This document shows positions 30,525-64,000 of a DNA stretch of 64,000 nucleotides, in pieces; positions within the stretch are counted from its first letter, which is position 1; each line of letters starts with the position of its first letter. Below the pieces are notes generated by a model that made no database searches, was not told the DNA's origin, and was given only the letters and a program-made list of their open reading frames with translations. Source of the DNA: Mesorhizobium sp. PAMC28654 (GTDB lineage: Bacteria > Pseudomonadota > Alphaproteobacteria > Rhizobiales > Rhizobiaceae); NCBI RefSeq assembly GCF_020616515.1, contig NZ_CP085135.1, forward strand, positions 5,937,001-6,001,000, written 5' to 3'. The translations under genes were made by a program, and so were the position numbers.

Positions 30525-30614
30525 ATGAAGAAGGTTTATGAGAAGCCGACGCTGAGCAAGCGTCAGTTGCTGTCGAAGGTCACCGCCCAGCAGAATCCGT
30601 CGGCGCCACGCTAA
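30525..30614 (+). CDS. Tiny peptide, putative RiPP precursor-like (copy 1)
   Basis: This 29-residue peptide begins MKKVYEKPTLSKRQ and ends SKVTA-QQNPSAPR. It shares the invariant K-K-x-Y-E-K-P-x-L and S-(K/R)-V-T-A positions with five other copies; only the last eight residues are specific. The Y-x-x-P-x-L motif and the Thr next to last in the leader resemble lasso peptide leaders. The short tail lacks the Asp/Glu needed for a lasso ring. A GGGGAAC ribosome site lies upstream. Too short for usual gene callers; nine or more supporting features are shared between copies. Confidence 0.75.
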   Translation: MKKVYEKPTLSKRQLLSKVTAQQNPSAPR

Positions 30615-30694
30615 CCCGACCGGTTCCAGCGCAGGCCGCTTGCTGAAAGATATCGTGCTGGCCTCCCTCCAGAGGGACGCTCTTGCCTCGCCGA

Positions 30695-30732
30695 AAAGCG
30701 ATCCGGCCGGCTTGCGCCGGCCAGACCGCTTT
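30695..30732. terminator. Bidirectional hairpin terminator
   Basis: Nested inverted repeats AAAGCG / CGCTTT and GGCCGGC-ttgc-GCCGGCC lie between the end of peptide copy 1 and the end of the leftward gene at 30744. On the minus strand TTTT follows the stem. It could end both transcripts. Confidence 0.55.
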
Positions 30733-30743
30733 CCATCCCCGGC

Positions 30744-31031
30744 TCAGCCGCAGACGCGGACTTCCTCGACCACGCGGTGGTGGTGGCGCCAATGCACTAC
30801 CTGCTCGATACGGCAATTGTGGCGGTGATGGCGGCGATAGCCGTTGTCGCCTTGATACTGGGCGTTTTCATCATAGTAATCGCGGTGCCGGCGGGGGTAA
30901 TAATTGTCGCCATTGTTCTGGTCGACATAGGCTCCGTCGGGGTTGATGATGAGGCTCGCGGCACTGGCCGGGGCGATGAAAGCGGTTGCCGAAGTAACGG
31001 CGATCAGGGACGCAATCAATAGCGTTTTCAT
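30744..31031 (-). CDS. Small secreted Tyr/His/Asn-rich protein
   Basis: This 95-residue protein has a signal peptide (MKTLLIASLIAVTSATAFIAPASA). The mature part is rich in Asp, Asn, Tyr, Arg and His (NNGDNYYPRRHRDYYDENAQY, then RRHHRHNC and HWRHHHR). Two cysteines may pair. The His clusters could bind metal; function unknown. A good AAAAAAGGAAT ribosome site precedes the ATG. Confidence 0.75.
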   Translation of the reverse strand: MKTLLIASLIAVTSATAFIAPASAASLIINPDGAYVDQNNGDNYYPRRHRDYYDENAQYQGDNGYRRHHRHNCRIEQVVHWRHHHRVVEEVRVCG

Positions 31032-31448
31032 GACTTATTCCTTTTTTAGCGGTTATGCAGATAAACCTTCGAGGCGGCGGCTCGTTCCCATACAAATCGG
31101 TAAGTTTTGTTCGCGGCCTTGTAAGAAGACGTGAAGGCCGGGGGTAAGAAAGGCGTGGAGGCGAGGCTTGGCGGCTCGCCGCTGCTGGGCGGTGTAGCTT
31201 CGGGCCCGGAGGCATGGAACCAAAGCCGCGTCAGACGGTTGTCTGTCTGATCGGTCACCGGAAAGTATCGATTGTTAAAGAGCCCGCATCCTTGTCCCCC
31301 TCGGATAGCGGGCTTTTTTGCGCCCCTATGTCAAAGTGAATAGACGGCGCGCCAGAATGCCTGCTTAATGCTGGCATCATCGGGTCTAGCTAGCGGCGGC
31401 CGGTGCTTGGGAGCGCAGATCGTACTCTTGCCCTTTGTGAGGCGTGAG
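31032..31448. other. Intergenic region with a terminator and a possible 39-codon frame
   Basis: A GTG-started frame (31131-31250; VKAGGKKGVEARLGGSPLL... 39 residues) is followed by a small palindrome TCAGAC...GTCTGA and a strong terminator. It may be a small RNA or a tiny gene; there is no convincing ribosome site, so I do not call it. Confidence 0.35.
31281..31319 (+). terminator. Rho-independent terminator without an assigned gene
   Basis: The stem AGCCCGC-ATCC / GGAT-a-GCGGGCT is followed by six Ts. Its AGCCCGC/GCGGGCT stem matches the terminators behind peptide copies 4 and 5. The transcript it ends is not identified. Confidence 0.7.
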
Positions 31449-31676
31449 ATGGTCGGGTATTTTCAGCAATGCGTACTTTACCCCTGCGACCTGGCGATGC
31501 TCCAGCGCGTGTTCGATGAAATCTGTGCCGATGGCTGCCACGATGCGGCGTCGCCAGAGGCGGAGATACTTGCCACCGCGCTGCTCGTCCTGTTCCAGAA
31601 CGGCATGACCAATGAAGCAGCGCTGCTGGCCGAAATGCGGTCGCGCCAGCAGGTTTACCTTCTGCGCACCGGCTGA
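31449..31676 (+). CDS. Small hypothetical protein
   Basis: From the ATG at 31449 (GAGGCGTGAG upstream) this is 75 residues: MVGYFQQCVLYPCDLAMLQRVFDEIC..., then a hydrophobic helix ILATALLVLFQNGMTNEAALLAEM. I recall similar short proteins beginning with an aromatic-rich strand and L-x-x-V-F-D-x-I-C in many rhizobia. Function unknown. Confidence 0.65.
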   Translation: MVGYFQQCVLYPCDLAMLQRVFDEICADGCHDAASPEAEILATALLVLFQNGMTNEAALLAEMRSRQQVYLLRTG

Positions 31677-31718
31677 TAGCAGCCCGGTATCAAAGCGAGC
31701 CGGATGCCGGCCCAATGG

Positions 31719-31940
31719 TCAGGCCTTCTTCACAAACTCGGTCTTCAGCACCAGGCCCTTGACCTGTTTGGTGTTGCATTCGATCTCGCCGGGATTGCCG
31801 TTGAGGCGGATGTTCTTCACCATCGTGCCGCGCTTGATTGTTTCCGACGTGCCCTTGACCTTCAGGTCCTTGATCAAGGTGACGCTGTCGCCGTCATTCA
31901 GCGCGGCGCCGTTGCTGTCTCTTACGATCGCGTCGGTCAT
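31719..31940 (-). CDS. PhnA/YjdM C-terminal-type protein
   Basis: This 73-residue protein consists of the small beta-barrel half of PhnA/YjdM proteins. DSNGAALNDGDSVTLIKDLKVKG, then I-K-R-G-T-M-V-K-N-I-R-L and I-E-C-x-x-K... V-L-K-T-E-F-V-K-K are the conserved strands. The zinc-ribbon half found in E. coli YjdM is missing. Despite its old name it is not known to cleave phosphonates. The start is set at 31940. Confidence 0.85.
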   Translation of the reverse strand: MTDAIVRDSNGAALNDGDSVTLIKDLKVKGTSETIKRGTMVKNIRLNGNPGEIECNTKQVKGLVLKTEFVKKA

Positions 31941-32142
31941 GTCCGGTCTTTCCAGGGGAGGGCGTCTGTCTTGGCGGCCGCAATGCCGGTCGCCTGTCTT
32001 GCGGCTTGTAGACTCGCCGCTTGTAGAAATCCGCCGCCTGTTCGTCCAGCGCATTGACGAACACCCTGCCGCCAGCCATCAGTTTTGGGGGGTTGCAAGG
32101 TGCCGGGCCGGTTGCACGGCCGGCTTGAGAGGAGGTTTGCGG

Positions 32143-32505
32143 ATGCGGCGTCGATGCATGGTCCTGTCGTCCGTCCTGGTTGTTGCCTTGCCCAGCGTGG
32201 CGCCCGCCGTCGCCGCGCCGGAGCAGGCCTATACTCTCGTCAAGTCCGGCGATTTCTGGGGCATGTGCCACGACCGCGAGCTGGACACCCGCAAGGAGCG
32301 TGACTGCACCAATTATCTGCTTGGCCAGATCGACGCCGCCGTGACGCTGGCCGCCCGGCAGGGGCCAAAGCTGTGCATGGATTTTGGCGAGCGGATACCC
32401 ACCCTGATCGACCAGGTTCTGGATCATGTGCCGGCGGACATGCCCGATGACCAGGAGATCACCCCCGCCATCCAGGCGGCCATCCTCAAGGCGCTGGCCT
32501 GCTGA
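32143..32505 (+). CDS. Secreted four-cysteine protein, Rap1a/Tai-like
   Basis: This 120-residue protein has a strong GAGGAGG ribosome site and a signal peptide cut near residue 24. The mature domain has four cysteines (MCHD, RDCTNYL, KLCMD, ALAC) and the Y-L-x-G-x-x-D-A segment typical of the Rap1a/Tai immunity-like fold. In enteric bacteria that fold protects against type VI effectors; in rhizobia such genes are often stand-alone. It is followed by an EthD gene, and the same pair recurs at 34428/34723. Confidence 0.65.
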   Translation: MRRRCMVLSSVLVVALPSVAPAVAAPEQAYTLVKSGDFWGMCHDRELDTRKERDCTNYLLGQIDAAVTLAARQGPKLCMDFGERIPTLIDQVLDHVPADMPDDQEITPAIQAAILKALAC

Positions 32506-32626
32506 CGAGGCGGGCGGATTGGCAAGGCGCGGATTGGCAAGGCGCGGCTTGAGAGGGGCCCGGATTGACAGAACCGGCACAAGGCGGCCACGCTGCCGGG
32601 AGACAACGGCTTTCGGGAGGATGATG

Positions 32627-32935
32627 ATGGCCAGCCTTGTGGTGATGTACGGCACGCCCAACGACGCGGCGGCCTTCGACCGCTACTACCGCGAAACCCA
32701 TATTCCCATCGCCAAGACCATTCCGGGCCTGCGGCGCTACGAGATCAGCCGCGGGCCGGTGGTCACGCCGGCGGGGCCGTCAAAATATCATCTGGTCGCC
32801 ACCTTGCTGTTCGATGACCTGGCAGCCATCCAGAACGCCTTTGCCAGCGCCGAAGGCCAGAAGGCCGCCGCCGATGTGCGGGTGTTCGCCACGGGCGGCG
32901 CGGAGATGTTCATTTTCGACAGCGAGGATGTCTGA
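32627..32935 (+). CDS. EthD-family protein (copy 1)
   Basis: This 102-residue protein has a ferredoxin-like EthD fold: LVVMYGTPNDAAAFDRYYRETHIPIAKTIPGL is the family signature (Y-R-x-x-H-x-P). Of three consecutive in-frame ATGs, 32627 is best spaced from GGGAGG. EthD proteins are small dimeric barrels associated with degradation of ethers and other xenobiotics, with mostly unknown substrates. It is paralogous to the gene at 34723-35070. Confidence 0.85.
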   Translation: MASLVVMYGTPNDAAAFDRYYRETHIPIAKTIPGLRRYEISRGPVVTPAGPSKYHLVATLLFDDLAAIQNAFASAEGQKAAADVRVFATGGAEMFIFDSEDV

Positions 32936-33360
32936 GGCAAGGGGCGCACGGCGTCCGGCCCAGCTCTTCTGAACGCCAGGGGGCGCGCCTTTGGAGAGTT
33001 GCCTCTCGCGGTGTCGTATTTGTAGGCGAGATGGCGATGCGCATGGTGCAATGGGAATGGCCGGCTGGCTATCGGCATTACCTGAGCGATCATGATATCA
33101 AGCCGACTGAGGAATTTGGGACATTTATACTTGGGCGGGATTGAGGTGGGCTGATCATAGCCCGCGCGGGGGTGGGATATAACTTCGACACAAGCGCGCC
33201 AGACGCTTTCGGCGCGCCGGAATCCGTTTCTCGCGGATGTCCTGGCGCTGCGCTTCACTGCGCCCTCGCGCGACACCGCCTTGACAGGCAGCGAGCGCGA
33301 GCGACGGCTCGGCCTCCGCCAATTCACCGTCCAGGGCGTCACTCTCGGGAGCGATGCATC
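32936..33360. other. Gap without a supported gene
   Basis: This is 425 bases between the EthD and sulfotransferase genes. Long antisense frames crossing it are shadows. The 33080-33190 part is AT-richer and may hold the sulfotransferase promoter. I see no repeat or RNA here. Confidence 0.4.
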
Positions 33361-34071
33361 ATGACCGGCGGGGACACATTCAGGACGGTGATCGTCGCGG
33401 CAACGCCCCGTTCGGGCAGTTCCATGCTCGGCCAGATGATGGCGAGCACAGGCTGCCTGGGCAAGCCGGCTGAGTATTTCGAGCCCGACCGGATGCCAGG
33501 CTCGACCCCTGCCGACCGATGCCGCCTGGCGCTCACCGAGGGGCGCTCCGCCAACGGCGTCGTGGCGACGAAACTGTTTCCGGAGCATTTCGACTGGCTG
33601 CGCCGGGACGTCCGGCTGAGCGACTGGTTCCCCGATCCGCTATGGGTGTATCTGCGCCGCCGCGACCTTCTGGGGCAGGCGATCTCGCTGGCCATCGCCA
33701 TGCAGGACAAAGCCTGGAAACATCACGACACGCCGGTCGGGAGCGCCGTCTATTCACGCGAAGGCATCGAACAGGCGCTCAAGCAATTGGCGGAGCCGCG
33801 CTGGCCGGTCTTCTTCGCGCGCCACGGGATCGAGCCGCTGGAACTGGTCTATGAGGATCTTGGCGACGCCGGCGACGCGTGCCGGATGATCGCCGAACGG
33901 CTCGGCGTGGCACTGACGGCGATGCCGGCGCCGCCGGTGCTGCAGCGCCAGCGCGGCGCGGTCAACGAGGCGTGGCGCCGGCGCTTCATCGCCGAGGCCG
34001 GCAACCCCGACGATTTCGACGGCCTTGTGCCGAAGGCACGCCGGCGCTGGCGGTTCTGGCGCGGTCCGTGA
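33361..34071 (+). CDS. Stf0-type sulfotransferase
   Basis: This 236-residue protein has the PAPS-binding 5'-phosphosulfate loop TPRSGSSML (about residues 15-23). Stf0-like features follow: GKPAEYFEPD, VVATKLFPEHFDWL, then the 3'-phosphate loop region VYLRRRDLLGQAISLAIAMQ. Mycobacterial Stf0 sulfates trehalose; rhizobial relatives sulfate glycans or other hydroxyls. It ends 163 bases before peptide copy 2, which has its own promoter-like box. A role in modifying that peptide is conceivable but unsupported beyond proximity. Confidence 0.88.
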   Translation: MTGGDTFRTVIVAATPRSGSSMLGQMMASTGCLGKPAEYFEPDRMPGSTPADRCRLALTEGRSANGVVATKLFPEHFDWLRRDVRLSDWFPDPLWVYLRRRDLLGQAISLAIAMQDKAWKHHDTPVGSAVYSREGIEQALKQLAEPRWPVFFARHGIEPLELVYEDLGDAGDACRMIAERLGVALTAMPAPPVLQRQRGAVNEAWRRRFIAEAGNPDDFDGLVPKARRRWRFWRGP

Positions 34072-34171
34072 CGCGGCGCGGCTCCGGCTCCCGCCTGGCG
34101 ACAGGCTATGAGAGGCGGCGCCAGCTTGGATGGGATTCCTCCGGTCCGCGAATCTGTATTTTAGCGCTGGC

Positions 34172-34177
34172 TTGACA
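34172..34177 (+). promoter_or_regulatory. Conserved -35-like TTGACA upstream of peptide gene copy 2
   Basis: TTGACA lies 62 bases before the ATG and is preceded by TTTTAGCGCTGGC, as before copy 1. Confidence 0.6.
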
Positions 34178-34233
34178 GGTCGGTGCTATTTGCATCACCG
34201 TTCGACGGCCATTTCGGGCTTTGGGGAATATCC

Positions 34234-34323
34234 ATGAAGAAAACTTACGAAAAGCCGACGCTCGACAAGCGTCAGAAGCTCTCGCGCGTCACAGCGGGTG
34301 GAGTTCCGTCAAATATAAAGTGA
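34234..34323 (+). CDS. Tiny peptide, putative RiPP precursor-like (copy 2)
   Basis: This 29-residue peptide begins MKKTYEKPTLDKRQKLSRVTA, split from a tail GGVPSNIK. Compared with copy 1 the leader-like part is conserved, while the tail is entirely different except for a Pro-Ser. TTTGGGGAATATCC precedes the ATG. It is followed 29 bases later by a strong terminator, so it forms its own transcription unit between the sulfotransferase gene and a Rap1a-like gene. GG at the start of the tail could also be read as a double-glycine cleavage site. Confidence 0.78.
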   Translation: MKKTYEKPTLDKRQKLSRVTAGGVPSNIK

Positions 34324-34352
34324 TCAGCCGGCAGGCGATCGCCAACCATTAA

Positions 34353-34380
34353 CCCGCCGCCGCGAGACGGCGGGTTTTTG
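34353..34380 (+). terminator. Terminator of peptide gene copy 2
   Basis: The stem CCCGCCG / CGGCGGG with an 8-base loop is followed by TTTTT, 29 bases after the stop codon. Confidence 0.85.
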
Positions 34381-34427
34381 TTTCTGACGCCAGCGCGATG
34401 GGCCTATGATCCGGATGGGAGTGCTGC

Positions 34428-34754
34428 ATGCCGATCCGCATCCTTTTACTGTCGATCTGTTCCGCAATCGTGGTGCTGCCTGCCGGGGCCGATGAGCAGG
34501 AGACGGCGGGACAATTCCTGGCGCGGTGCGAACGTCCCAATCCCGCCTGCCGCGGCGAATACGAGGCCGGCTTGCAGGCTGTGAACGAGGGCCAGCTGGC
34601 GTGCCCGCCGCGCATCGACGTCAACGCGCCGATCACGCCTTGGCTCGACATCATGCACCGCATGGTCGCCGAGAAACCGGGCCTCGCCGATGGCGACAAG
34701 AACAGGCTGCAGCTGGAAGCGTTCATGCGCCTGTGGCCTTGTCCGGCGAAATGA
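34428..34754 (+). CDS. Secreted four-cysteine protein, Rap1a/Tai-like (second copy)
   Basis: This 108-residue protein has a signal peptide (IRILLLSICSAIVVLPAGA). The mature part has four cysteines at RCERP, ACRGEY, ACPPR and PCPAK, the same order as in the 32143 protein, with EYEAGLQAV in the place of YLLGQIDAA. Overall identity looks low. The 3' end overlaps the tail of the convergent EthD gene by about 30 bases. Confidence 0.65.
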   Translation: MPIRILLLSICSAIVVLPAGADEQETAGQFLARCERPNPACRGEYEAGLQAVNEGQLACPPRIDVNAPITPWLDIMHRMVAEKPGLADGDKNRLQLEAFMRLWPCPAK

Positions 34755-35070
34755 CTGTTCGCACGGCCTCGGTATCGAAAAGCAGTATCGTCACGGCATC
34801 ATCCGCGGCGAGTTTGCGCCGGTCCTGCGCGCACGCCTTGCCGACCTCGCTGGCAAAGGCCACGCGAATGGTCTCCAGGCTGTCGAAATAAAGCGTCGCC
34901 ACCCTGAAGGGCGTCTCACCCTGCGTGACGTTCACGATCGGCTGCTGGCTGATCTCGTAGCGGTGAAGCCCGGGCAACTGCTTGGCCAGCGGCACGTGGA
35001 TGTCGAAGTAATGCCGGTCGAAGGCGGCTGGGTCGGCGGGGGTCTTGTAGATGACAAGCATCTTGGCCAT
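34723..35070 (-). CDS. EthD-family protein (copy 2)
   Basis: This 115-residue protein is clearly homologous to the EthD protein at 32627: P-A-A-F-D-R-x-Y-x-x-x-H-x-P-x-A-K-x-x-P-G-L-x-R-Y-E-I-S is shared. Its C-terminal extension (about 12 residues) lies in the overlap with the convergent Rap1a-like gene. Orientation relative to its Rap1a-like partner is opposite to that of the first pair. Confidence 0.85.
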   Translation of the reverse strand: MAKMLVIYKTPADPAAFDRHYFDIHVPLAKQLPGLHRYEISQQPIVNVTQGETPFRVATLYFDSLETIRVAFASEVGKACAQDRRKLAADDAVTILLFDTEAVRTVISPDKATGA

Positions 35071-35431
35071 GGCGGTGTTTTTCCTGTCCGGTCTTGAGTG
35101 ACGGGCGCTCGCCGGGCTTCATCGGCGCCGCACCAATGTCGTCCGGCAATGGCTGAATTCGACAGGTGCCAAATTTTATCGCGAGGTCCCTTGGCCAGTT
35201 GATCCTGATCAAAGCTGACCACCGCGCACGCGCCTAACTGATGTCCCGTCTTGGGAAGGACGCAAGGCGGGCGGGTGGCCCGGGTCGTGCCCCTATCAGC
35301 TGGAAACAGCCTCGGCACGGACCACCTGAACCCTTGAAATTGACAGAGCTCGCGGTCTCCGTCATCCTTGCCGCAGTCGCCGGGCCACCAGAAGAGGCCA
35401 TGTTGCGTGTAGGCGACCGAGGGCAACGTGC
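35071..35431. other. Gap without a supported gene
   Basis: This is 360 bases between the divergent EthD gene and the small gene at 35432. Several open frames cross it, but none has a ribosome site plus plausible composition. No repeats seen. Confidence 0.4.
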
Positions 35432-35656
35432 ATGGCCAGTCCCGTCACCAGCCAGAATTCCAAGCGCGCCGCGGTGCGCAAGGCGCTCGACCGCCACAAG
35501 GTCTACATCACCGCGCAAAGCTTTTCGGCCGGCGCGTATAGCGCGCGCGTGCTGGTGGATGGCGAGGCTTACTGGGTGGATGAGTTCCGGCTCGCCCAGC
35601 TGCGGGAAGGGCTGACCCCCGCCGAGCTTGAGTTGACACCTGCCACCGACGATTGA
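35432..35656 (+). CDS. Small hypothetical protein
   Basis: This 74-residue protein, MASPVTSQNSKRAAVRKALDRHK then VYITAQSFSAGAYSARVLVDGEAYWVDEFRLAQLREGLTP, looks like a compact alpha-beta domain with no signal peptide. Composition and start context are gene-like; no family recognised. Confidence 0.55.
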   Translation: MASPVTSQNSKRAAVRKALDRHKVYITAQSFSAGAYSARVLVDGEAYWVDEFRLAQLREGLTPAELELTPATDD

Positions 35657-36031
35657 GCGTGACGGGCCGCAACGTGCCAGCGGGACGCCGCGCCTGATGC
35701 ATGCCGCTCCTTTCCTTTCGCCATCCCAGGGCGGAGCAGGCGCGAAGCGACGTCGCGGAGACCCTGGGATTCATGCCGTGATATTCACCGAGAGGCACCG
35801 CGGTCCGGATTCTAGCACTTCATCGTCGAGTTCCTTCGCGCCCCCCTCTGTCCTGCCGGACATCTCCCCCTCAAGAGGGGAGATCGGCAGCTTCGATGCA
35901 ACTGCACATCATCCGGCGTTGGTGATTGGCGAAAGCCTTGGCGACATACGATCTCCCCCCTGGAGAGGGAGATGTCCGGCAGGACAGAGGGGGGCGTTGT
36001 CCCTCTGCGCAACGATCGATCGCGCCTGACC
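35657..36031. other. Gap holding a palindromic element upstream of ligD
   Basis: Apart from the type B repeat (35836-35996) there is no gene here. The repeat ends only 35 bases before the ligD start. Confidence 0.45.
35836..35996. repeat. Long palindromic intergenic element (type B, copy 1)
   Basis: The outer arms CGCCCCCCTCTGTCCTGCCG / CAGGACAGAGGGGGGCG and inner CATCTCCC/GGGAGATG arms surround about 70 bases of unique sequence. The same structure recurs at 38562 and 49151. It resembles a MITE or mosaic intergenic element. Confidence 0.8.
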
Positions 36032-38536
36032 ATGCCCACCCCTCCCAAACTCAAAACCTACCGCGCCAAGCGCGAATTCTCGAAAACCCCCGAACCAGCC
36101 GGCGGGCTGATCTCCGGCCCAATGGGGGGAGACGGCAACCGCTTCGTCGTCCACAAGCATCATGCCACGGCCGATCACTATGATCTCAGACTCCAGGTTG
36201 GCGATGTGCTGAAGAGCTGGGCGGTGCCGCGCGGGCCTTCGCTCAATCCGGCCGACAAAAGGCTGGCGGTGGAGACCGAGGATCATCCGCTTGAATATAT
36301 CGACTTCGAGGGCGTCATTCCCGAGGGCGAATATGGTGGTGGGCCGATGATCGTCTGGGACACGGGAACGTGGGCGCCGATGGACGATGTCGAGAAAAGC
36401 CTGAGCACCGGCGCGTTCAAGTTCCGGCTGGCCGGAGAAAAGCTCAATGGCGGCTGGATGCTGACCCGGCTGAAGCCCAAGCCCGGCGAGGACGAGGGCA
36501 AGAAGAACTGGCTGCTGTTCAAGGAACGCGATCTCGCTTCCGATCCCAAGCTCGATATCCTGGAAGCGCGACCGGAAAGCGTGAAATCCGGGCTGCGCAT
36601 CGAGGCGCTGGCGGCGGTTCCCAAGCCGGCCGCGAAGTCCGCACCGAAGCCGGGTTCGCTCAAGCCCGGCACGCTGCCGGGCGCGTTGAAGGCGCCGGCA
36701 TCCGGCCGCATCGAGCCGCAACTGGCGACGCAGGTGCCTAAACCGCCCGATGGCGAAGACACCAATGAGCTCTGGCTGCACGAGATCAAGTTCGACGGCT
36801 ACCGCACCATGGCGCATCTGAGTGACGGCGTGGTCAAGCTGATCACCCGGGGCGGCATCGACTGGACGAAGCGCTATGGCGACCTGCCGCATGCCTTCGC
36901 CAAATTGCCGTGCCGCGAGGCGATCATCGATGGCGAGATCGTCGTGCTCGATGCCAAGGGCATCAGCCGCTTCGCGCTGCTGCAGGATGCGCTGGCCGAG
37001 GGCGCCGGCAGCAAGCTGCATTTCTATGCCTTCGATCTGCTGCATCTCGATGGTTGGGATCTGACCAAGACGCCACTCTTCCGGCGCAAGGCGCTGCTGG
37101 CGCAGCTGCTCGCCGGGCTGGGCGCCAACTCCGCCATCCAGTTTTCCGATCATGTCGAAGGCTCGGGGCAGGGGCTTTACGACCAGGCGACGGAGCTCGA
37201 GCTCGAAGGCGTCGTCTCCAAGCGCGCCACCGCGATCTACCAGAGCGGCCGGAGCAAGAGCTGGACCAAGTGCAAGGCGCTGAAAAACGGTGATTTCGTC
37301 ATCGCAGGGTACACCACCTCGGATGCCGCCGAGGGGCTCGCGGCGCTCGGTCTTGCCGAGTTCGAGGAGGGCGAGCTGCATTATCGCGGCAAGGTGGGGA
37401 CGGGCTTCGACCGCGACACAGCCGCCGACCTGCTGGCCCGGCTGGAGCCGCTCACCGCCGGCGCGACGCCGCCCGAAGGCGTGCCGCGCGAAATCATGCG
37501 CGAGATGCATTGGGTGAGGCCGCTGTTCTCGGCCCACATCCACTATGCCAACCGCACGGCCGACAATGCGCTGCGCCACGCTGTGTTCAAGGGCCTCAGG
37601 GATGTCGGCCTATCGACGCCGGTGTCGGCGAAGCGCAAGCGGCTGATCTCCGAGGCGGATCTCGCCACCATCTGGGTGACCAATCCGGAGCGGCGGCTGT
37701 TCGGCAAGACCGGACCGACCAAGCTCGACATCGCCGTCTACTACGCGCTGGTCGGCGATTTCATGCTGCCGCACATTCTTGGCCGCCCGGTGTCGCTGGT
37801 GCGCTGCCCGACCGGCCTGCCAAAGGACTGCTTCTTCCAGCGCCACGCCTTCACCGGCATGCCGCCCTCGGTGGTGACGTTCGAAGCGACCAATTCCGAG
37901 GGCGAGACCAAATCCTACCTCTCGGTCGAGGGCGCCAAGGGCTTTTTGGCGCTGGCGCAGTTCGGCGTCGTCGAGTTCCACACCTGGGGCACGCACCGCA
38001 CAAGCCTCGACAAGCCCGACCAGATCGTCTTCGACCTCGACCCCGGCGAGGGGATTTCCTGGCGCGAGGTGGTCGAGGCGGCCGTCCACATCAAGGGCGA
38101 GCTGGAGGGGCTGGGGCTGGTGCCCTTCGTAAAAACCTCCGGCGGCAGCGGCATCCATATCACGGTGCCGGTGACGCAAAAGCAGAACTGGAAGAAGCTG
38201 CACCAGGCGACCAGCGCCATCGCAACGCATCTGACGGCCACCGCGCCGGACACCTTCACCACCACCATGGGCAAGGACAACCGCAAGAAACGCATCTTCA
38301 TCGACTATCACCGCAACGCACGCGGCCACACCTCGGCAGCCCCTTACTCGCTGAGGGCGCGCACCAATCTGCCCGCCTCGACGCCGGTCAGCTGGGGTGA
38401 TCTGGAGGCGATCGATGCGCCGCAGGATCTGAACTTTTCGTCGCTGCCGGGGCTGCTGGAGACGTCGGGCGATCCCTGGGCGGAGATTGACGAGTTCGCG
38501 CGGGATTTGCCGGTGATGTCGGGAAGCAGAAAGTAG
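36032..38536 (+). CDS. ligD: ATP-dependent DNA ligase D (PE-LIG-POL)
   Basis: This 834-residue multifunctional NHEJ enzyme has three domains. The N-terminal 3'-phosphoesterase spans about residues 25-180 (HKHHATADHYDLRL). The ligase spans about 230-520, with the adenylated lysine K253 in EIKFDGYR and DGEIVVLD later. The polymerase/primase spans about 550-825, with KTGPTKLDIAVYY and the catalytic acids in DLDPGEG near residue 670. With Ku it repairs double-strand breaks. I start at 36032 (MPTPPKLKTYR); an upstream in-frame ATG lies inside the palindromic element. Confidence 0.95.
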   Translation: MPTPPKLKTYRAKREFSKTPEPAGGLISGPMGGDGNRFVVHKHHATADHYDLRLQVGDVLKSWAVPRGPSLNPADKRLAVETEDHPLEYIDFEGVIPEGEYGGGPMIVWDTGTWAPMDDVEKSLSTGAFKFRLAGEKLNGGWMLTRLKPKPGEDEGKKNWLLFKERDLASDPKLDILEARPESVKSGLRIEALAAVPKPAAKSAPKPGSLKPGTLPGALKAPASGRIEPQLATQVPKPPDGEDTNELWLHEIKFDGYRTMAHLSDGVVKLITRGGIDWTKRYGDLPHAFAKLPCREAIIDGEIVVLDAKGISRFALLQDALAEGAGSKLHFYAFDLLHLDGWDLTKTPLFRRKALLAQLLAGLGANSAIQFSDHVEGSGQGLYDQATELELEGVVSKRATAIYQSGRSKSWTKCKALKNGDFVIAGYTTSDAAEGLAALGLAEFEEGELHYRGKVGTGFDRDTAADLLARLEPLTAGATPPEGVPREIMREMHWVRPLFSAHIHYANRTADNALRHAVFKGLRDVGLSTPVSAKRKRLISEADLATIWVTNPERRLFGKTGPTKLDIAVYYALVGDFMLPHILGRPVSLVRCPTGLPKDCFFQRHAFTGMPPSVVTFEATNSEGETKSYLSVEGAKGFLALAQFGVVEFHTWGTHRTSLDKPDQIVFDLDPGEGISWREVVEAAVHIKGELEGLGLVPFVKTSGGSGIHITVPVTQKQNWKKLHQATSAIATHLTATAPDTFTTTMGKDNRKKRIFIDYHRNARGHTSAAPYSLRARTNLPASTPVSWGDLEAIDAPQDLNFSSLPGLLETSGDPWAEIDEFARDLPVMSGSRK

Positions 38537-57885: not shown

Positions 57886-57940
57886 GGGCGCGTCGGGTTT
57901 GATCCGGGGAGCTTCGGCGGAAGCACTTTCCTTCGAGCGT

Positions 57941-58054: not shown

Positions 58055-58119
58055 AGCTTGCAGCGACCTAGGCGCCCTTCTTGCAACGTTGGTAATTGGC
58101 AAAACCATCAACGACAGCG

Positions 58120-58392: not shown

Positions 58393-59601
58393 GTGACCGC
58401 CCAGACCGCCCAACACACCCGTTTTACAAACGCCAGGCTAGCCGATGGCGCGCTGGTTGACCTCACCGTCGCCGATGGCCGCTTCAGCGCCATCACGCCG
58501 GCGGGCGACGGTGCGCCCGCCATCGAGACCATCGACCTCGGCGGACAACTCACGGTGCCCGGCTTCGTCGAGGGTCACATCCATCTGGACACCTCGTTCT
58601 ATGGTGACGCCTGGCGGCCGCATCTTCCCTGCACCGGCGGTTTCGACGTGCGCGAGCGCGTGGCGTTCCAGGCGCGCAACCTCACGGCTGCCGCACCCAT
58701 CGCTGTGCGGGCCAAGAACCAGCTGGAGCTGTGCGTCGCCCATGGCAGCCTTTCGATGCGCAGCCACGTCATGGTCGACGGCTCGGTCGGGCTGAAGCAT
58801 CTGGAGACGATCCTTGCGGTGCGCGAGGCGCACCGCGACCTCATCGACATCCAGCTCGTCGCCTTCCCGCAAAGCGGCATCCTGTCGTTACTCGGCACGG
58901 CGGAGTTCCTGGAGGAGGCGGTGAAGCTCGGCTGCGACCTGATCGGCGGGCTCGACCCCGCGAGCTTCGACCGCGACGTGAAGGGGCATCTCGACGTGGT
59001 GTTCGGCCTGGCGCAAAAGCACGGCGTCGGCGTCGACATCCACCTGCACGATGGCGGCACGCTCGGGCTGTTCGAGATCGAGGAGATCGCCGCGCGGACA
59101 AAGGCATTGGGCATGCAGGGCCATGTCACCGTCAGCCACGCCTATGCGCTGGGCGAGTTTTCCGGCGATGCGCTGAAGAAGGCCGGCGACATGCTGGCGG
59201 CGGCAGGCGTCGCGATCATGACCAACGCGCCGGGCAACCACGCCTTTCCGCCGGTCGCGGCACTCAGGCAGGCCGGCGTCACCGTGTTCGGCGGTTCCGA
59301 CAACATCCGCGATTCCTGGTGGCCCTATGGCGATGGCGACATGCTGAGCCGCGCCAACATGATCGGCTACCGCTCCGGCTTCTACGAGGACCACGAGCTG
59401 GAAGCGGCCTTTGACGTGGTCACCTATGCCGGCGCCAGGGCGTTGCGACTGGACAATTACGGCATCGGGGTCGGCGCCAGCGCCGACTTCGTGACGCTTG
59501 GGGCGGAGCATGTGCCCGAGGCGGTGGTGGCGGTGCCCAAGGCGCGGACAGTCTATCGCCGGGGCAGGGCGGTGGCGAAGGATGGGAAGCTGCTGGCGTG
59601 A
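58393..59601 (+). CDS. Amidohydrolase, cytosine-deaminase-like
   Basis: This 402-residue enzyme has a metal-dependent TIM-barrel hydrolase fold. HIHLD (H62, H64) gives the first metal ligands, VDIHLHDGG the third, HVTVSHAYAL the fourth, and GSDNIRDSW the catalytic Asp. The sequence VEGHIHLDTSFYGDAW is close to the cytosine deaminase/atrazine-type CodA group. It starts at GTG 58393. It probably deaminates or hydrolyses a cyclic amide or cytosine-like compound, fitting the region's racemase, amidase and transporter. Confidence 0.9.
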   Translation: MTAQTAQHTRFTNARLADGALVDLTVADGRFSAITPAGDGAPAIETIDLGGQLTVPGFVEGHIHLDTSFYGDAWRPHLPCTGGFDVRERVAFQARNLTAAAPIAVRAKNQLELCVAHGSLSMRSHVMVDGSVGLKHLETILAVREAHRDLIDIQLVAFPQSGILSLLGTAEFLEEAVKLGCDLIGGLDPASFDRDVKGHLDVVFGLAQKHGVGVDIHLHDGGTLGLFEIEEIAARTKALGMQGHVTVSHAYALGEFSGDALKKAGDMLAAAGVAIMTNAPGNHAFPPVAALRQAGVTVFGGSDNIRDSWWPYGDGDMLSRANMIGYRSGFYEDHELEAAFDVVTYAGARALRLDNYGIGVGASADFVTLGAEHVPEAVVAVPKARTVYRRGRAVAKDGKLLA

Positions 59602-59689
59602 GAGGTTTGCCTCTTGAAACGGATCATGAAATGGTCTGGATATCCTGGGATATTGGGCCCGTGTCTGGTCCGGAGCAGGATATGCCGCG

Positions 59690-59947
59690 ATGAAGGTATC
59701 GGTGACCGAGGCGAAGGGGCAATTGACGGAGCTGGTTCGGCGCGCGGAAGCGGGTGACGAGGTCATCCTGACTCGCAATGGCCATGCCGCTGTGCGCCTC
59801 GTGCCCGTCAGTGCGGTGCTGGACCGGAAATCCCGTCGGGCGTTGCTGGAGGCGGTGCGGACATCCGCCGCCACAAAGGCATCCGCCGGGCCAAGTGCTG
59901 CCCGCAGCCAGGATTTCCTCTACGGCGATGATGGCGAAACTTATTAG
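59690..59947 (+). CDS. Phd/YefM-family antitoxin without an adjacent toxin
   Basis: This 85-residue protein shows the Phd/YefM N-terminal DNA-binding signature (VSVTEAKGQLTELVRRAEAGDEVILTRNGHAAVRLVPV). The C-terminal part (about residues 45-85) should bind a toxin such as a PIN-domain protein. No VapC/Doc/RelE-like gene follows; the next gene is 47 bases away on the other strand. So it is an orphan antitoxin or regulator. Confidence 0.85.
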   Translation: MKVSVTEAKGQLTELVRRAEAGDEVILTRNGHAAVRLVPVSAVLDRKSRRALLEAVRTSAATKASAGPSAARSQDFLYGDDGETY

Positions 59948-59993
59948 GTCGGCCTGAAGGCAGAGGCTTATTAGCAGCAAAGCGCGGGCGGCA

Positions 59994-61040
59994 TCACGCT
60001 TCGCCCTCGCACAGATAAAGGCTTGCCGATGGCACGGTCGCGCCCGCTCCGGCCTGGAGGGGCTGGGCCACAAACAGGTTCTTTCCGATCTCGAGGAATT
60101 CGCGCTTGGCGATATCGCGCCGGTTCGATGACGGCACGATCTGGCCGTTCCGGACGGGGATCACGAAGCCGAATTCGCCCCCGGCCTGTCCGCCCCGGTC
60201 GAGCCAGTACTCGTCCATGTCCGCATGTTTGCGCACACGGTTCCGGGAGACGCGGAAATTGATCGTGTGCGTGGCATTCGACACGCCGAGAAGATGATCG
60301 GCGCCGCCGCGCAACGCAATGCCTTCCATGACCAGCAGCGCCGCGTCCTTCGGCCTGAGCCCGCCCATGTCACGGGTGGCGTCGACAACGGCACGCTTTG
60401 AATTCCGCTGCCTGCTGCCCTGGATGCCACCGATGGCGGCGGTGTAGCCGCCGGGCAATTTGTACAAAACGAAGCTCAGCTTGACCAGGTCGAACCGATC
60501 TCTCCGCCGTGTCAGCTTGATCGAAAAAGCGCCCTCATGGTTGGCGGCCGAATGGACGGCCAGCCGCATGGTCAATGTGTAGGCATCGCGCTTTCCGGCC
60601 ACCATGCCGATGTCCATCGGGCGGCCATGCCATGCCGCTTCCAGCCGATCGCGCGGCAAGGTTGCCGCGGCGAGATTGAAATGATCGGCGAGCAGGTCGA
60701 AGCCGCGTCCGCCCGGCAGCCCACGCGCGAAGAACTTGTAGACTTTCTTGAGCAGCAGGTCGTCGTTCGGCCTGTCCAGCCGGTGCTGCCGCCTGAACCT
60801 GGACAGGAACCTGAACCATTTGAAAAAGCTGACCGGCTTGCAGGCGACCCTGGACAGGAAGACCATCGATCGCCGCGCGCCCATGCGGGCGCAGAGGCTG
60901 CCAAGCTGCGCGGCAACGCCGGCGGCCTCCCGAGGCCAGCCGGGAAAACCCGGCTCCTTGCTCGTGTCGGTGCTCAAGATCCGCCCCGCATATCTTCCCA
61001 GCGCACAGGCAAATCGCCACTGCACTTCGCCGTTTCCCAA
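59994..61040 (-). CDS. VirK/YbjX (DUF535) family protein
   Basis: This 348-residue protein shows the DUF535 pattern: a basic N-terminal helix region (FFKWFRFLSRFRRQHRLD), central beta-rich part (MRLAVHSAANHEGAFSIKL, LSFVLYKLPGGYTAAIGGIQGSRQRN), and the signature LLVMEGIALRGGADHLLGVSN...HADMDEYWLDRGG. Relatives include Shigella VirK and E. coli YbjX/SomA, linked to envelope or virulence roles, mechanism unclear. No signal peptide. Confidence 0.85.
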   Translation of the reverse strand: MGNGEVQWRFACALGRYAGRILSTDTSKEPGFPGWPREAAGVAAQLGSLCARMGARRSMVFLSRVACKPVSFFKWFRFLSRFRRQHRLDRPNDDLLLKKVYKFFARGLPGGRGFDLLADHFNLAAATLPRDRLEAAWHGRPMDIGMVAGKRDAYTLTMRLAVHSAANHEGAFSIKLTRRRDRFDLVKLSFVLYKLPGGYTAAIGGIQGSRQRNSKRAVVDATRDMGGLRPKDAALLVMEGIALRGGADHLLGVSNATHTINFRVSRNRVRKHADMDEYWLDRGGQAGGEFGFVIPVRNGQIVPSSNRRDIAKREFLEIGKNLFVAQPLQAGAGATVPSASLYLCEGEA

Positions 61041-61453
61041 TCATTCGGACGATGAAAGCAGTCTTCAAACACCCCAGCCGCAACGTGGGTTGTGGTCTCA
61101 AGACCAAACGCGGCGTTGCTACCCCGTGGACATTGCCTACGCATTACACCTTGCAAGGAAATGTCCGGGATTATACGGATCGGTAAAGATTAGCGGCTTC
61201 GAATGGAAGGAAGTGTGAAGTTGAGGGGCGGCGGGGCGGCGCACGGTCCGGTTTTGCTTTGTGAGAAGACCGCGCTGCTTAAACCCGGGCGAGCCGGTTG
61301 TGCCGCAAGTTTACCAGAATGTAGTCACGTTATCGATTTTGCGTCGGGCACGTCTCCCGGGGCCGACTTCCATACTGCTGGGGTATGCACCGCCGCCATC
61401 AGCCGCCAGAGGCACCCGGCGCCGGCCGGCTCGTCGCTGCAATGCAACCTGGC
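61041..61453. other. Gap without a supported gene
   Basis: This is 413 bases between two leftward genes. Open frames here are Ser/Arg-rich shadows. An AT-richer stretch at 61150-61200 may be the promoter of the VirK-like gene. Confidence 0.4.
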
Positions 61454-61744
61454 TCATATCTCGTCGAAGCGTCCCTCGCGGGTCGGGTGGCGTGTGATTG
61501 CCGCTTCCTCCTCGTCGTCGGGTAGCGCGTCGTCGCTCTCCTGATACGGGTTGTCGTCGTCTTCCTCCGGCAGGTCGCCATCCTTCTCCGTGTCGAAACG
61601 ACTGTCGTTTTCCGGCACGCTGTCGGGCAGGATCTCGCCGCCCTTGATCGCATCCCAGTCCTGCTGGCCGATCGTCGGTCCATCGATATCCTCCGCGACG
61701 TCCGGATTTTGGCTGTTGGTGGGTGATTTGCCGCGTGGTGCCAT
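61454..61744 (-). CDS. Small, very acidic hypothetical protein
   Basis: This 96-residue protein starts behind AGGAGG. It is rich in Asp, Glu, Pro and Asn (KDGDLPEEDDDNPYQESDDALPDDEEEAA), with a small possible structured part (IDGPTIGQQDWDAIKGGEIL). I remember similar short acidic proteins in many rhizobia. It is probably disordered; function unknown. Confidence 0.7.
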   Translation of the reverse strand: MAPRGKSPTNSQNPDVAEDIDGPTIGQQDWDAIKGGEILPDSVPENDSRFDTEKDGDLPEEDDDNPYQESDDALPDDEEEAAITRHPTREGRFDEI

Positions 61745-62120
61745 GCTGGCCTCCTGTAGCGACTGCCGTTTCCAGCATCGCGGGTTTCATAATCGAATCA
61801 AATCGCCGCTCCATCTCGTTGTTCGAGCGTCGAATTTTTCAAAACTGGCGACAGCCTCCGGATACGATATCCAGCACCGCCATTTCTGAAATGACTGATT
61901 GCGAAATTCGGCGCGGACACAATGGTTCCGCCCCGTCCATGGAAGGGGCCGTCTATCCGTCGGAACTTTGGCGCGAAAGGCGAGGCGACGGCGTATATTC
62001 AATGTAATGTAGCAATCACTTCATTGAGAGGCGACCCCGAGGTGATCGGGCGTTGCATTTTTGTCATGTCCTTGGGCGACCGGGAAAGCGTTTTCGCCGT
62101 AGATCCAGAGCCCGTTGACG
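61745..62120. other. Gap without a supported gene
   Basis: This is 376 bases, AT-richer around 61830-61900 and 62000-62050. It must hold the promoter of the acidic-protein gene. No repeat or RNA structure stands out. Confidence 0.4.
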
Positions 62121-62417
62121 CTATCTGTCGGAGGAGACGAACAACGAGGCGGCGATCTGGGCGCGCAGGCCGGCGGGGCGTTCCTTTGCCTTGAGCAGGC
62201 CTTGTTCGCGGGCGGCGCGCTCGAAGGCGGACCATGCGACGGCCGGCCGGCATGCGCCGTTTTCAGCCGCGACCAGAAGCTGTGCCGCGGTCTTGTAGCT
62301 CTTCGCTTCCTTGTTGCACCAATGGCCTGCAAGGGCCCTGCGCGCGTCGGGGATCGAGGTGACCACCATGGAGCGGGCGTCGATGAAGCGAATGGTCAAG
62401 GCGGGCAGGGCGCGCAT
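62121..62417 (-). CDS. DUF982 family protein
   Basis: This 98-residue protein starts at 62417. The DUF982 features are LTIRFIDARSMVVTSIPDARRAL, W-C-N-K in place of the usual W-P, YKTAAQLLVAAENGACRP and AFERAAREQGLLKAK. It is closest to the member at 24006 within this window. Function unknown. Confidence 0.75.
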   Translation of the reverse strand: MRALPALTIRFIDARSMVVTSIPDARRALAGHWCNKEAKSYKTAAQLLVAAENGACRPAVAWSAFERAAREQGLLKAKERPAGLRAQIAASLFVSSDR

Positions 62418-62427
62418 GGCGACCGCC

Positions 62428-62544
62428 TCACCAGCCGAGCCACTCGCGCGTGCGCCAGGCAAGGCCAGCGAAGGGCGTGACGAGAACGAGAAACACCAGC
62501 ATCATCGTCAACGGGTGTCTGGTCATCGAGGGTCGCGGAGCCAT
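62428..62544 (-). CDS. Tiny single-helix membrane protein
   Basis: A 38-residue peptide starts at 62544 behind AGGTGACCTAGCG. It has basic residues followed by one hydrophobic helix (LTMMLVFLVLVTPFAGLAW) and ends REWLGW. It lies ten bases before the DUF982 gene in the same direction and may be co-transcribed with it. Confidence 0.45.
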   Translation of the reverse strand: MAPRPSMTRHPLTMMLVFLVLVTPFAGLAWRTREWLGW

Positions 62545-62859
62545 CGCTAGGTCACCTTTTGCTTCTGAGAATGTTGCTTCTGAGAACGCCGTTTTGCAAA
62601 CCGCAGGTGTAACGTCACTTCGGCCAAGTGGTTGCATCGCCACGCTGGCGGAATTGGCCAGGTGGCGGCATTCATCCCGCGGGGCAGGGGGACGGTTCAG
62701 GGCGTTGGTTCGAGGCGGCGCCGGGGCCGAGAAGCGATATGCCGTGCGATGCCTGCGGATCATTCACGCGAACCCGTTGGCGGAACCTGTTGGAACCTTC
62801 TGGCCATCGGGGCGTTTTGAATACGGATCGCCCCCCTCGCGATCCCAAGCCCCAAGTAC

Positions 62860-62894
62860 AGCCCCGCCGGTCTCCCCGTCCGGTGGGGCTTTAT
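62860..62894 (+). terminator. Rho-independent terminator without an upstream gene
   Basis: The 11-bp stem AGCCCCGCCGG / CCGGTGGGGCT with a 9-base loop is followed by TTATT. Confidence 0.7.
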
Positions 62895-62966
62895 TGTCTT
62901 GGCGGCCCCCTTTGCGTCGGCAGCCTGGAACAATCAATTTTCCAGCAATCGCGCGTCGCGAAAGGG

Positions 62967-62972
62967 TTGACA
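62967..62972 (+). promoter_or_regulatory. Conserved TTGACA box upstream of peptide gene copy 3
   Basis: It lies 58 bases before the ATG, followed after 17 bases by GAGTTT as a possible weak -10. The same box, distance and GA-x-x-T-T element are found for copies 5 and 6, and for copy 4 if its 17-bp duplication is discounted. Confidence 0.6.
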
Positions 62973-63024
62973 TGGAACAACCTGGGCGCGAGTTTCCGCC
63001 CATGTCCATTTTGGGGAGTCGGGA

Positions 63025-63123
63025 ATGAAGAAAATCTACGAGAAGCCGGTTCTGGTTCGCCGCGAGAAACTGTCGAAGGTCACGGCGGCCTTGCCACTAA
63101 GCGGTAACAATGGTCCGGCCTGA
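63025..63123 (+). CDS. Tiny peptide, putative RiPP precursor-like (copy 3)
   Basis: This 32-residue peptide has the leader-like part MKKIYEKPVLVRREKLSKVTA (split here at the Thr-Ala) and the tail ALPLSGNNGPA, the longest of the complete copies. TTTTGGGGAGTCGGGA before the ATG is a strong ribosome site. It is the first cassette of the tandem array at the window end, with its own TTGACA box and a weak downstream hairpin (GCCA-ggg-TGGC then CTTTTCTTT). No maturation gene is adjacent within the window. Confidence 0.82.
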   Translation: MKKIYEKPVLVRREKLSKVTAALPLSGNNGPA

Positions 63124-63297
63124 CGATTTTCGTCGGTCCGCCAGGGTGGCCTTTTCTTTCTCGGTTCCCGGCGCCTGAATTGCCGCGGTGCATGGCCTGG
63201 CCGGCTTCCTCCGCCGGGTTTTCAGGCATTCGCGGGCTATCCTGCTCACCATTTCGGGAAACAATCGATCTTCAAGCATTCGCACGCCGCGACCGCA

Positions 63298-63303
63298 TTG
63301 ACA
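63298..63303 (+). promoter_or_regulatory. Conserved TTGACA box upstream of peptide gene copy 4
   Basis: It lies 75 bases before the current ATG but exactly 58 before the first of two duplicated ATGs (63356). Confidence 0.6.
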
Positions 63304-63343
63304 TCGGGCAAGCCGGGCGCGAATTTTCGCCCGCATCACTCAT

Positions 63344-63377
63344 GGGGAATTGGGAATGAAGGGGAATTGGGAATGAA
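63344..63377 (+). repeat. 17-bp tandem duplication across the ribosome site and start of copy 4
   Basis: GGGGAATTGGGAATGAA is present twice in direct succession. The first unit's ATG now opens a frame of only six codons (MKGNWE, stop); the second unit starts the peptide gene. Confidence 0.85.
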
Positions 63378-63465
63378 GAAAATCTACGAGAAGCCTGTGT
63401 TGGTTCGCCGCGAAAAACTGTCGAAGGTCACGGCTATCCCGCTGAATTCGTCGAAGTCGGTCTGA
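63373..63465 (+). CDS. Tiny peptide, putative RiPP precursor-like (copy 4)
   Basis: This 30-residue peptide has a leader-like part identical to copy 3 and a tail IPLNSSKSV. Synonymous differences from copy 3 (CCT GTG TTG for CCG GTT CTG) together with the unchanged protein indicate selection on the leader. The upstream 17-bp duplication leaves a decoy start in front. A good terminator follows 12 bases after the stop. Confidence 0.82.
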   Translation: MKKIYEKPVLVRREKLSKVTAIPLNSSKSV

Positions 63466-63476
63466 CGGTTTCATCA

Positions 63477-63508
63477 GCCCGCCGCCGACAGGGGAGGCGG
63501 GCTTTTCT
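63477..63508 (+). terminator. Terminator of peptide gene copy 4
   Basis: The stem AGCCCGCC / GGCGGGCT with a 12-base loop is followed by TTTCTTT. Confidence 0.8.
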
Positions 63509-63660
63509 TTGCCGCGATTCCAGGTCCCGGTGCCTGGGTTCTCGCCGGAGCATTCGGCCCGGCGAGCTCTCTTCGCGGTGATTTCCCGCATTTTGGGGGC
63601 TTTCTTGCATCAGTGGGCGGAGAACAGGTCATTATCCGGATCTGATACGTCGGCTATGGA

Positions 63661-63666
63661 TTGACA
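63661..63666 (+). promoter_or_regulatory. Conserved TTGACA box upstream of peptide gene copy 5
   Basis: It lies 58 bases before the ATG, followed after 17 bases by GAGCTT. Confidence 0.6.
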
Positions 63667-63718
63667 TGCAAACAAGCGGGGGTGAGCTTGCAACCGTATC
63701 CATGGCGGGAGACGGGGC

Positions 63719-63808
63719 ATGAAGAAAATCTACGAGAAGCCGGTGCTTGTGCGCCGCGAAAAACTGTCGAAGGTCACGGCCGGTGGGTCACCATCGAGGC
63801 CGACCTGA
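63719..63808 (+). CDS. Tiny peptide, putative RiPP precursor-like (copy 5)
   Basis: This 29-residue peptide has the same leader-like part as copies 3 and 4, with different codons, and a tail GGSPSRPT. The tail echoes copy 2 (GG-x-P-S). GGGAGACGGGGC precedes the ATG. The cassette repeats the array pattern (box, 58-base leader, gene, terminator); start-to-start distance from copy 4 is 346 bases and from copy 3 to copy 4 is 348. Confidence 0.82.
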   Translation: MKKIYEKPVLVRREKLSKVTAGGSPSRPT

Positions 63809-63815
63809 CCTGACC

Positions 63816-63845
63816 AGCCCGCCGCCAGGGGTGGCGGGCTTCCTG
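63816..63845 (+). terminator. Terminator of peptide gene copy 5
   Basis: The stem AGCCCGCC / GGCGGGCT with a 9-base loop is followed by TCCTG. The T-run is poor. Confidence 0.6.
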
Positions 63846-63912
63846 CTTCGAGGTCTGAATTTTCACCGGCCGGAAACAGGACGTGGTCCAACGACTACAT
63901 GGGTGTCGCGGG

Positions 63913-63918
63913 TTGACA
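63913..63918 (+). promoter_or_regulatory. Conserved TTGACA box upstream of peptide gene copy 6
   Basis: It lies 58 bases before the ATG. The whole leader (GACGCGAGTTTCCGCCC, then TCCATTTTGGGGAGTCGGG) is almost identical to that of copy 3. Confidence 0.65.
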
Positions 63919-63970
63919 TGAGGCCGGCTGGACGCGAGTTTCCGCCCGTATCCATTTTGGGGAGTCGGGG

Positions 63971-64000
63971 ATGAAGAAAATCTACGAGAAGCCGGTGCTT
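63971..64000 (+). CDS. Tiny peptide, putative RiPP precursor-like (copy 6, cut by window end)
   Basis: The first ten codons, MKKIYEKPVL, are visible before the window ends. The leader DNA matches copy 3 closely. The array therefore continues to the right. Confidence 0.8.
   Translation, partial: MKKIYEKPVL

Follow-up and report, generated by a model that had tools for sequence, protein, structure and literature searches.

What do the short repeated genes in this part of a Mesorhizobium chromosome encode, and which enzymes would act on their products? The window, meaning the whole 64,000-nt stretch analysed (C1:5937001-6001000 of Mesorhizobium sp. PAMC28654, whose genome is a single contig of 6,701,426 bases), contains six genes whose peptides share a leader and differ in their tails, and which a sequence-only reading had compared to precursors of ribosomally synthesized and post-translationally modified peptides (RiPPs). 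Our answer is that these genes probably encode the dispersed precursors for a lasso-derived RiPP pathway that lacks a cyclase, and that these precursors are probably matured in trans by a B1-B2-K-N enzyme module elsewhere in the genome and phosphorylated on a serine of the tail.

Precursor genes, leaders and tails

The open reading frame (ORF) listing of the window confirmed all six genes on the + strand at the positions reported in the sequence-only reading, and the five tails spelled out there are correct. The sixth gene is cut by the window end, and its tail was completed from the genome beyond it.

30525..30614, + strand: precursor gene 1, MKKVYEKPTLSKRQLLSKVTA then tail QQNPSAPR (ORF and family profile)
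34234..34323, + strand: precursor gene 2, MKKTYEKPTLDKRQKLSRVTA then tail GGVPSNIK (inner ATG of a listed ORF, and family profile)
63025..63123, + strand: precursor gene 3, tandem array, MKKIYEKPVLVRREKLSKVTA then tail ALPLSGNNGPA (ORF and family profile)
63373..63465, + strand: precursor gene 4, tandem array, MKKIYEKPVLVRREKLSKVTA then tail IPLNSSKSV (ORF and family profile)
63719..63808, + strand: precursor gene 5, tandem array, MKKIYEKPVLVRREKLSKVTA then tail GGSPSRPT (ORF and family profile)
63971..64000, + strand: precursor gene 6, tandem array, crossing the window end, MKKIYEKPVLVRREKLSRVTA then tail APSNSNAP (ORF, genome and family profile)

Mapped over the whole genome, as had been proposed, the family comprises 11 copies by a profile built from seven of them (E 7e-19 to 1.6e-4), at 308, 862, 3169, 4632, 4633, 5967 and 5971 kb, with a tandem group of four at 6000 kb. 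An exact DNA-pattern search for the beginning of the leader gave 6 genomic places, and its reversed control 0. A database search gave no match in phage records, and its plasmid matches were 2 Mesorhizobium records.

Because our earlier profile had included the tails, we rebuilt it from leaders alone. The leader consensus of the family is MKKxYEKPxLxKREKLSxVTA. Matches of the leader-only profile in the fetched loci are 26-42 residues long, and at a score of at least 25 the 184 matches keep Y(-17) in 175, P(-14) in 173, L(-12) in 160 and A(-1) in 181, position -2 being T in 124, V in 41, A in 14 and another residue in a few. The signals of a lasso-type RiPP recognition element (RRE) are therefore present, namely YxxPxL at -17 to -12, Ala at -1 and in most cases Thr at -2, in agreement with the lasso-like motif and Thr near the cut that had been pointed out before. 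The lasso leader families NF033521, NF033528 and PF19397 scored at best 13.3, 11.6 and 16.5 bits against five window peptides, under their cut-offs of 19, 33 and 22.6. Moreover, the leader is under purifying selection: its ratio of replacement to silent differences (pN/pS) comes to 0.195 (189 close pairs, not independent of each other), with a third-position excess, compared with 0.65 for the tails (63 equal-length close pairs, also non-independent). The earlier argument from silent differences between copies thus holds, and leader substitutions are not as frequent as silent ones. The 90 leaders used for pN/pS were chosen by a pattern fixing Y, P and A(-1), which makes invariance there circular, and for these positions the 184-match count was used instead. 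All leader and tail statistics come from the fetched loci, a different and smaller set than the 888 copies counted in the genus.

The tails had been described as unrelated to each other. This did not hold, because a serine is common to them; where cysteines occur they are mostly paired. With the profile that included tails, 169 of 177 peptides could be anchored (8 could not; the anchor fixes A(-1) and T, A, V or M at -2), giving 166 unique tails, among which Ser is present in 165, against 79% expected from their own composition, and stands at +5 in 66%. With the leader-only profile, 183 of the 184 matches had tails of 5-25 residues and Ser was found in 182 of these; weaker matches (score 12-25) added 19 more, 12 with tails of that length and 11 of those with Ser. 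Cysteine is absent from 134 of the 183 tails, single in 2 and double in 47, and Ser lies between both cysteines in 47/47. Because of this flanking we suggest a disulfide loop around a modified Ser, an arrangement that the two-Cys tails, a quarter of the family, would fit. Asp or Glu at +7 to +9, the acceptor of a lasso ring, occurs in only 17/166 unique tails, so that the reported lack of an acidic residue there is mostly borne out; one source-genome tail, AQPLSGDSQAPEKT, has Asp at +7. At an orthologous site with flanks ~88% identical in DNA, the source genome has four copies and its close relative G166 two, with zero tails in common. Leaders persist while tails turn over between strains.

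The module and its co-occurrence with the family

A genome search found lasso-type parts at two sites. The first, at 3.169-3.172 Mb and ~2.8 Mb from the genes of the window, is the B1-B2-K-N module, which one family copy adjoins and from which a cyclase is absent. B1 is an RRE (PF05402, over cut-off) whose profile matches the lasso RREs TfuB1 and TbiB1, the source genome's own lasso B1 being 1 of the 12 rows in the alignment. B2 is a lasso-type Cys leader peptidase (NF033537, 65.7 bits against a cut-off of 33); Cys73 and His110, which we take to be catalytic, are invariant in 11 aligned B2, and a profile search at E 1 found no solved relative. K comes after B2 with overlapping or abutting open frames; its sequence profiles match HPrK, and a structure search (Foldseek, VIA) returned phosphoenolpyruvate carboxykinases (PEPCKs), with no HPr kinase among the best 50 matches. 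N is a nucleotidyltransferase (PF14907, over cut-off), convergent to K in Mesorhizobium. A trans-acting maturation gene co-occurring with the family, which the sequence-only reading had looked to, thus exists in the form of this module.

The block was complete in 20/20 further congeners fetched, K and N being further apart in two loci (L106 and L120). By eye, an acyl-CoA ligase-like gene flanks it on one side in 20/20 and a close dhaK-like gene stands on the other in 18/20 (missing in L114, matched at just 38% in L119), with Wzc-like and galU-like genes nearby in many. Among 80 module loci from named genomes, which include Devosia, Hoeflea, Nitratireductor and Chelativorans, B1, B2 and K were found in 80/80, N in 79/80 and a cyclase in 0/80, and precursors lay within the flanks of 36. 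Outside the genus, 7 of 8 module-bearing genomes have precursors in the module region (weak in G306, atypical in G421), with five complete copies at the Devosia locus. Other Hyphomicrobiales, too, have the module with precursors next to it.

Family and module also go together genome by genome, all copy numbers and presences being lower bounds, since a limited number of first-look candidates was scored (up to 55 per genome in the genus; 23 and 11 in the order-wide searches). The 146 genomes of the genus include 102 with the family and 97 with the module's B2; both occur in 97, and B2 without the family in 0. The 97 B2-positive congeners carry 3-29 copies each (median 9, 888 in all), the 49 others 0-2. 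Comparison shows the module to be present wherever the multicopy family is found in the genus. The five genomes that have the family but not B2 yield six matches between them, among which the second copy of G139 and the copy of G140 are without the YxxP part, the copy of G253 has no standard start codon and the match in G141 looks spurious. Across 347 genomes of the order, 13 have the family, 14 have B2 and 12 have both, the 12 including six genera outside Mesorhizobium. One genome (G308) has a weak family match without B2, and two (G339 and G420) have B2 and no family match at the threshold used; in G420, though, five divergent precursors adjoin the module.

Proposed maturation and competing explanations

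In the pathway that we favour, B1 would bind the leader and present the precursor, K, of PEPCK/HprK fold, would phosphorylate the tail Ser, and N would attach to that phosphate either a nucleotide or, as reported for pseudomycoidin, a sugar. B2 would cut after VTA and release a peptide of mostly 8-12 residues; in Cys tails a disulfide would close a loop round the modified Ser. The product had been predicted to be different from a lasso peptide, short, and modified or merely trimmed; a short non-lasso product is retained here, and Ser phosphorylation is likely in place of mere trimming. Because the module adjoins exopolysaccharide-like genes, a surface or signalling role is plausible.

Several observations weigh against this pathway. 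K is HprK-related and scores under the curated HPr-kinase cut-offs, a Pfam scan of the Devosia K gives no HPr kinase, and the proposed phosphorylation by K would rest on fold, motif and analogy. The conserved Ser stands near +5, while the characterised kinases, in the available parts of their descriptions, act on a C-terminal Ser or on Ser3. No dedicated exporter was identified; G339 has a module and no precursor in its 14 kb, and G139 and G238 have one intact-looking copy in common though without B2. Finally, within the genus, presence of the family goes with presence of the lasso cyclase (97 genomes with both, 5 with the family only, 6 with the cyclase only and 38 with neither; 3e-23, a p-value that, like all those for co-occurrence here, ignores shared ancestry).

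The best surviving alternative, to which we give a low probability, is that B1 and B2 only trim, the released tails staying unmodified while K and N serve other substrates. B1 and B2 would suffice for trimming, K is a weak family match, and N lies outside the operon in Mesorhizobium. Against this, the frame of K overlaps or abuts that of B2, and K is kept at every one of the 80 loci, with N at all but one, and the residue kept in the tails (182/183) is Ser, the substrate residue of HprK-like kinases in related pathways; LppK left Thr or Tyr in place of Ser unphosphorylated, according to the available text of PMC13381572.

It is also improbable that K and N install something other than phosphate on the Ser (nucleotidyl, polyphosphate or acyl), a proposal whose trans-maturation part is common with our preferred pathway, so that their odds overlap. 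HPrK and PEPCK have a common fold, which argues against it. The Mesorhizobium loci compared, moreover, showed no close ligase-GNAT homologue next to the module. The HPr-kinase homologues of related pathways phosphorylate Ser, as far as the available parts of PMC13381572, PMC10368454 and PMC8498205 describe them.

A quite different proposal, in which the genome's own lasso cluster would mature the family in trans as ordinary lasso precursors, we regard as very unlikely. This cluster, the second lasso-type site (3.197-3.203 Mb, ~23 kb from the module), has A, B1, B2, C, K and an ABC-like gene, the last by eye. Its cyclase is genuine by score (NF033535, 787 bits against a cut-off of 525), its precursor ends in Ser, and its kinase has weak HprK scores. 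YxxPxL is common to both leader sets, one own tail has the Asp at +7 noted above, and the cyclase correlates with the family, which in our reading may reflect joint retention or loss of two nearby clusters. However, the source genome's lasso cyclase was unmatched at 80/80 module loci (tblastn, 1e-6, over flanks of up to 7 kb on either side, full-length in 73), and among 16 genomes searched, four of other genera (G393, G421, G501 and G537) had no cyclase match genome-wide at 1e-5. Within the genus, the B2-positive genomes G136, G153, G170, G242 and G246 keep 6, 6, 7, 6 and 16 copies with no cyclase match at 1e-60 and have only distant Asn-synthase relatives (~26-35% identity), the loss in G242 being uncertain as that genome is 79% complete; in G171 and G198 (12 and 7 copies) the cyclase match is split in two. 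Because some family-bearing genomes lack any lasso-cyclase relative, the cyclase is not needed. Together with the rarity of a ring acceptor in the tails, this supports non-lasso precursors of RiPP type that carry a lasso-like leader.

That the family is a repeated non-coding or regulatory RNA element, or a set of attenuator-type leader ORFs, is barely tenable: the segments are short, dispersed and mostly preceded by TTGAC, and 63/176 copies have a terminator-like hairpin against 24-33 in shuffles, but such a reading, which the sequence-only reading had itself raised, fails on the codon-level selection in the leader, the constraint that the translated tails show on Ser and on paired Cys, the co-occurrence with peptide-maturing enzymes and an Rfam search with no match at gathering scores in window 29500-64000.

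Related systems and neighbouring features

The closest comparison is with the linear polyphosphorylated peptides (LPP) of Popov et al. (May 2026, PMC13381572), which the available text of that report states to be restricted to Bacillota. By the same text LPP have, in common with the present system, a discrete RRE, an HprK-like kinase, an NTP transferase and no macrolactam cyclase, a YxxP leader with a variable C-terminal part, and a frequent location near capsular polysaccharide loci and lasso clusters. In LPP one Ser is phosphorylated by the kinase, whereas in Mesorhizobium a conserved Ser is known from sequence only. LPP use LppS, an SpI-like signal peptidase, where the Mesorhizobium module has a lasso-type B2, and the SpI-type model TIGR02228 was over cut-off in 0/14 genomes (weak sub-cut-off matches in 2). 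LPP also have an MsbA-like transporter, with none identified for the module; their precursors are 35-200 residues long and one to three per cluster, against short ones here, at a median of 9 per genome and for the most part not next to the module, and their leader YxxPxVLxHQxIxFETxxS is not matched by our consensus (PMC13381572, available text). The Mesorhizobium system would thus appear to work like LPP, yet by the tests of peptidase, leader, precursor size and precursor number it looks to be no member.

Likewise, the phosphorylated and phosphoglycosylated lasso peptides paeninodin, pseudomycoidin and Bsf have B1, B2, a kinase and in some cases a nucleotidyltransferase, with phospho-Ser in the phosphorylated members, and Bsf has YxxPxL at -17 to -12 and a constrained residue at -2 (PMC8498205 and PMC10368454, in their available parts). 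Unlike these, the module has no cyclase, and its precursors are dispersed, with short tails mostly lacking a ring acceptor. Phospeptin, from an uncultivated ocean lineage, is likened only as a bacterial poly-phosphorylated RiPP (PMC9259500, available part). According to the available part of PMC7470986, the discrete lasso RRE model of RRE-Finder covers ~8,000 proteins, and because only ~4,000 of them co-occur with a leader peptidase and a cyclase, modules of this kind may lie unlabelled within that set. Among the best matches in one library of open-access literature, no description of the present system was found.

In prochlorosin-type systems one enzyme set acts on numerous precursors, many of them in trans, whose leader is constant while the cores vary; this layout is shared, while the LanM enzyme class, the leader family and the thioether-bridged cores are different. 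We propose only tentatively that here, too, one trans-acting set matures a repertoire of about ten short phospho- or phosphoglyco-Ser peptides from mostly independently transcribed genes, a quarter of them disulfide-looped, as strain-specific signals or as surface-polysaccharide tags. If our preferred pathway is correct, the tails are probably cut out and phosphorylated, giving a so far undescribed repertoire of modified mini-peptides. Cyclase-less phospho-RiPPs would then extend from Bacillota to rhizobia with another leader peptidase, in the unusual layout of one enzyme set for many scattered mini-precursors, and the acceptance of many tails by one set would be useful for engineering. Product masses are predictable because of the leader profile and the single conserved Ser, and Mesorhizobium peptidomics could be searched directly. 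Genomes with both a lasso and a non-lasso RRE pathway offer natural pairs, useful for the question of cross-talk avoidance.

Upstream of the genes, the following elements were located.

30463..30468, + strand: TTGACA, 62 nt before gene 1
34172..34177, + strand: TTGACA, 62 nt before gene 2
62967..62972, + strand: TTGACA, 58 nt before gene 3
63298..63303, + strand: TTGACA, 75 nt before gene 4
63661..63666, + strand: TTGACA, 58 nt before gene 5
63913..63918, + strand: TTGACA, 58 nt before gene 6

TTGAC precedes 116/178 copies (shuffled mean 13), mostly ~50-70 nt before the start, and GGA, GAG or GGG stands at ribosome-binding distance in 173/178, a count without shuffled control; therefore most copies look like separate transcription units. 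A standard sigma-70 pair was not recognised in the tandem array. By eye, a GC inverted repeat (e.g. GGGCGCGAGTTTCCGCCC) lies between TTGACA and the start in three array copies (window 62980-63005, 63310-63335 and 63925-63950), possibly an operator or an odd promoter part. In addition, a duplicated GGGGAATTGGGAATGAA at window 63340-63378 creates a six-codon ORF ending at the start of precursor gene 4.

Around the module, two cis subfamilies were seen in Mesorhizobium loci among L211-L286: one, MK(K/R)xYEKP..., directly precedes B1, and the other, MTKKxYxAPVLRKAGKLS..., lies upstream of N. Several of their precursors end in collagen-like tails such as SGPIGPAG. Seven non-Mesorhizobium loci (L187, L195, L281, L282, L284, L285 and L288) have an AMP-binding ligase and a GNAT-type acetyltransferase beside the module, possibly for extra acyl tailoring.

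L284:8713-10694, L288:9386-11349, L282:9629-11652 and four more loci: ligase-GNAT pair

One module (L287) is on a contig of a metagenome-assembled genome labelled Phycisphaera mikurensis, perhaps misassigned. The lasso cluster of the source genome looks to be of the phosphorylated type (L016:10035-17446, genome 3,195,035-3,202,446), its precursor reading MEQNVDRQEYETPSLTVHGSIETITQ then GGGGNTAID..., presumably with the cut between the two, and ending in Ser; a gene upstream in this cluster aligns with module N at 24% identity.

Two sulfotransferases adjoin precursor copies, one of Stf0 type (window 33352-34071) and one of Sulfotransfer_4 type just beyond the window (L007:1169-1909). We dropped them as candidate tailoring enzymes because they are not recurrent, reappearing only as an ortholog in G166 among 116 precursor-bearing loci, a comparison in which L007 and L136 are the source genome and many loci have only ~1.5 kb of flanks. 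Two similar short proteins, resembling EthD-type proteins, are encoded near genes 1 and 2 (window ~32617-32935, + strand, and 34723-35070, - strand).

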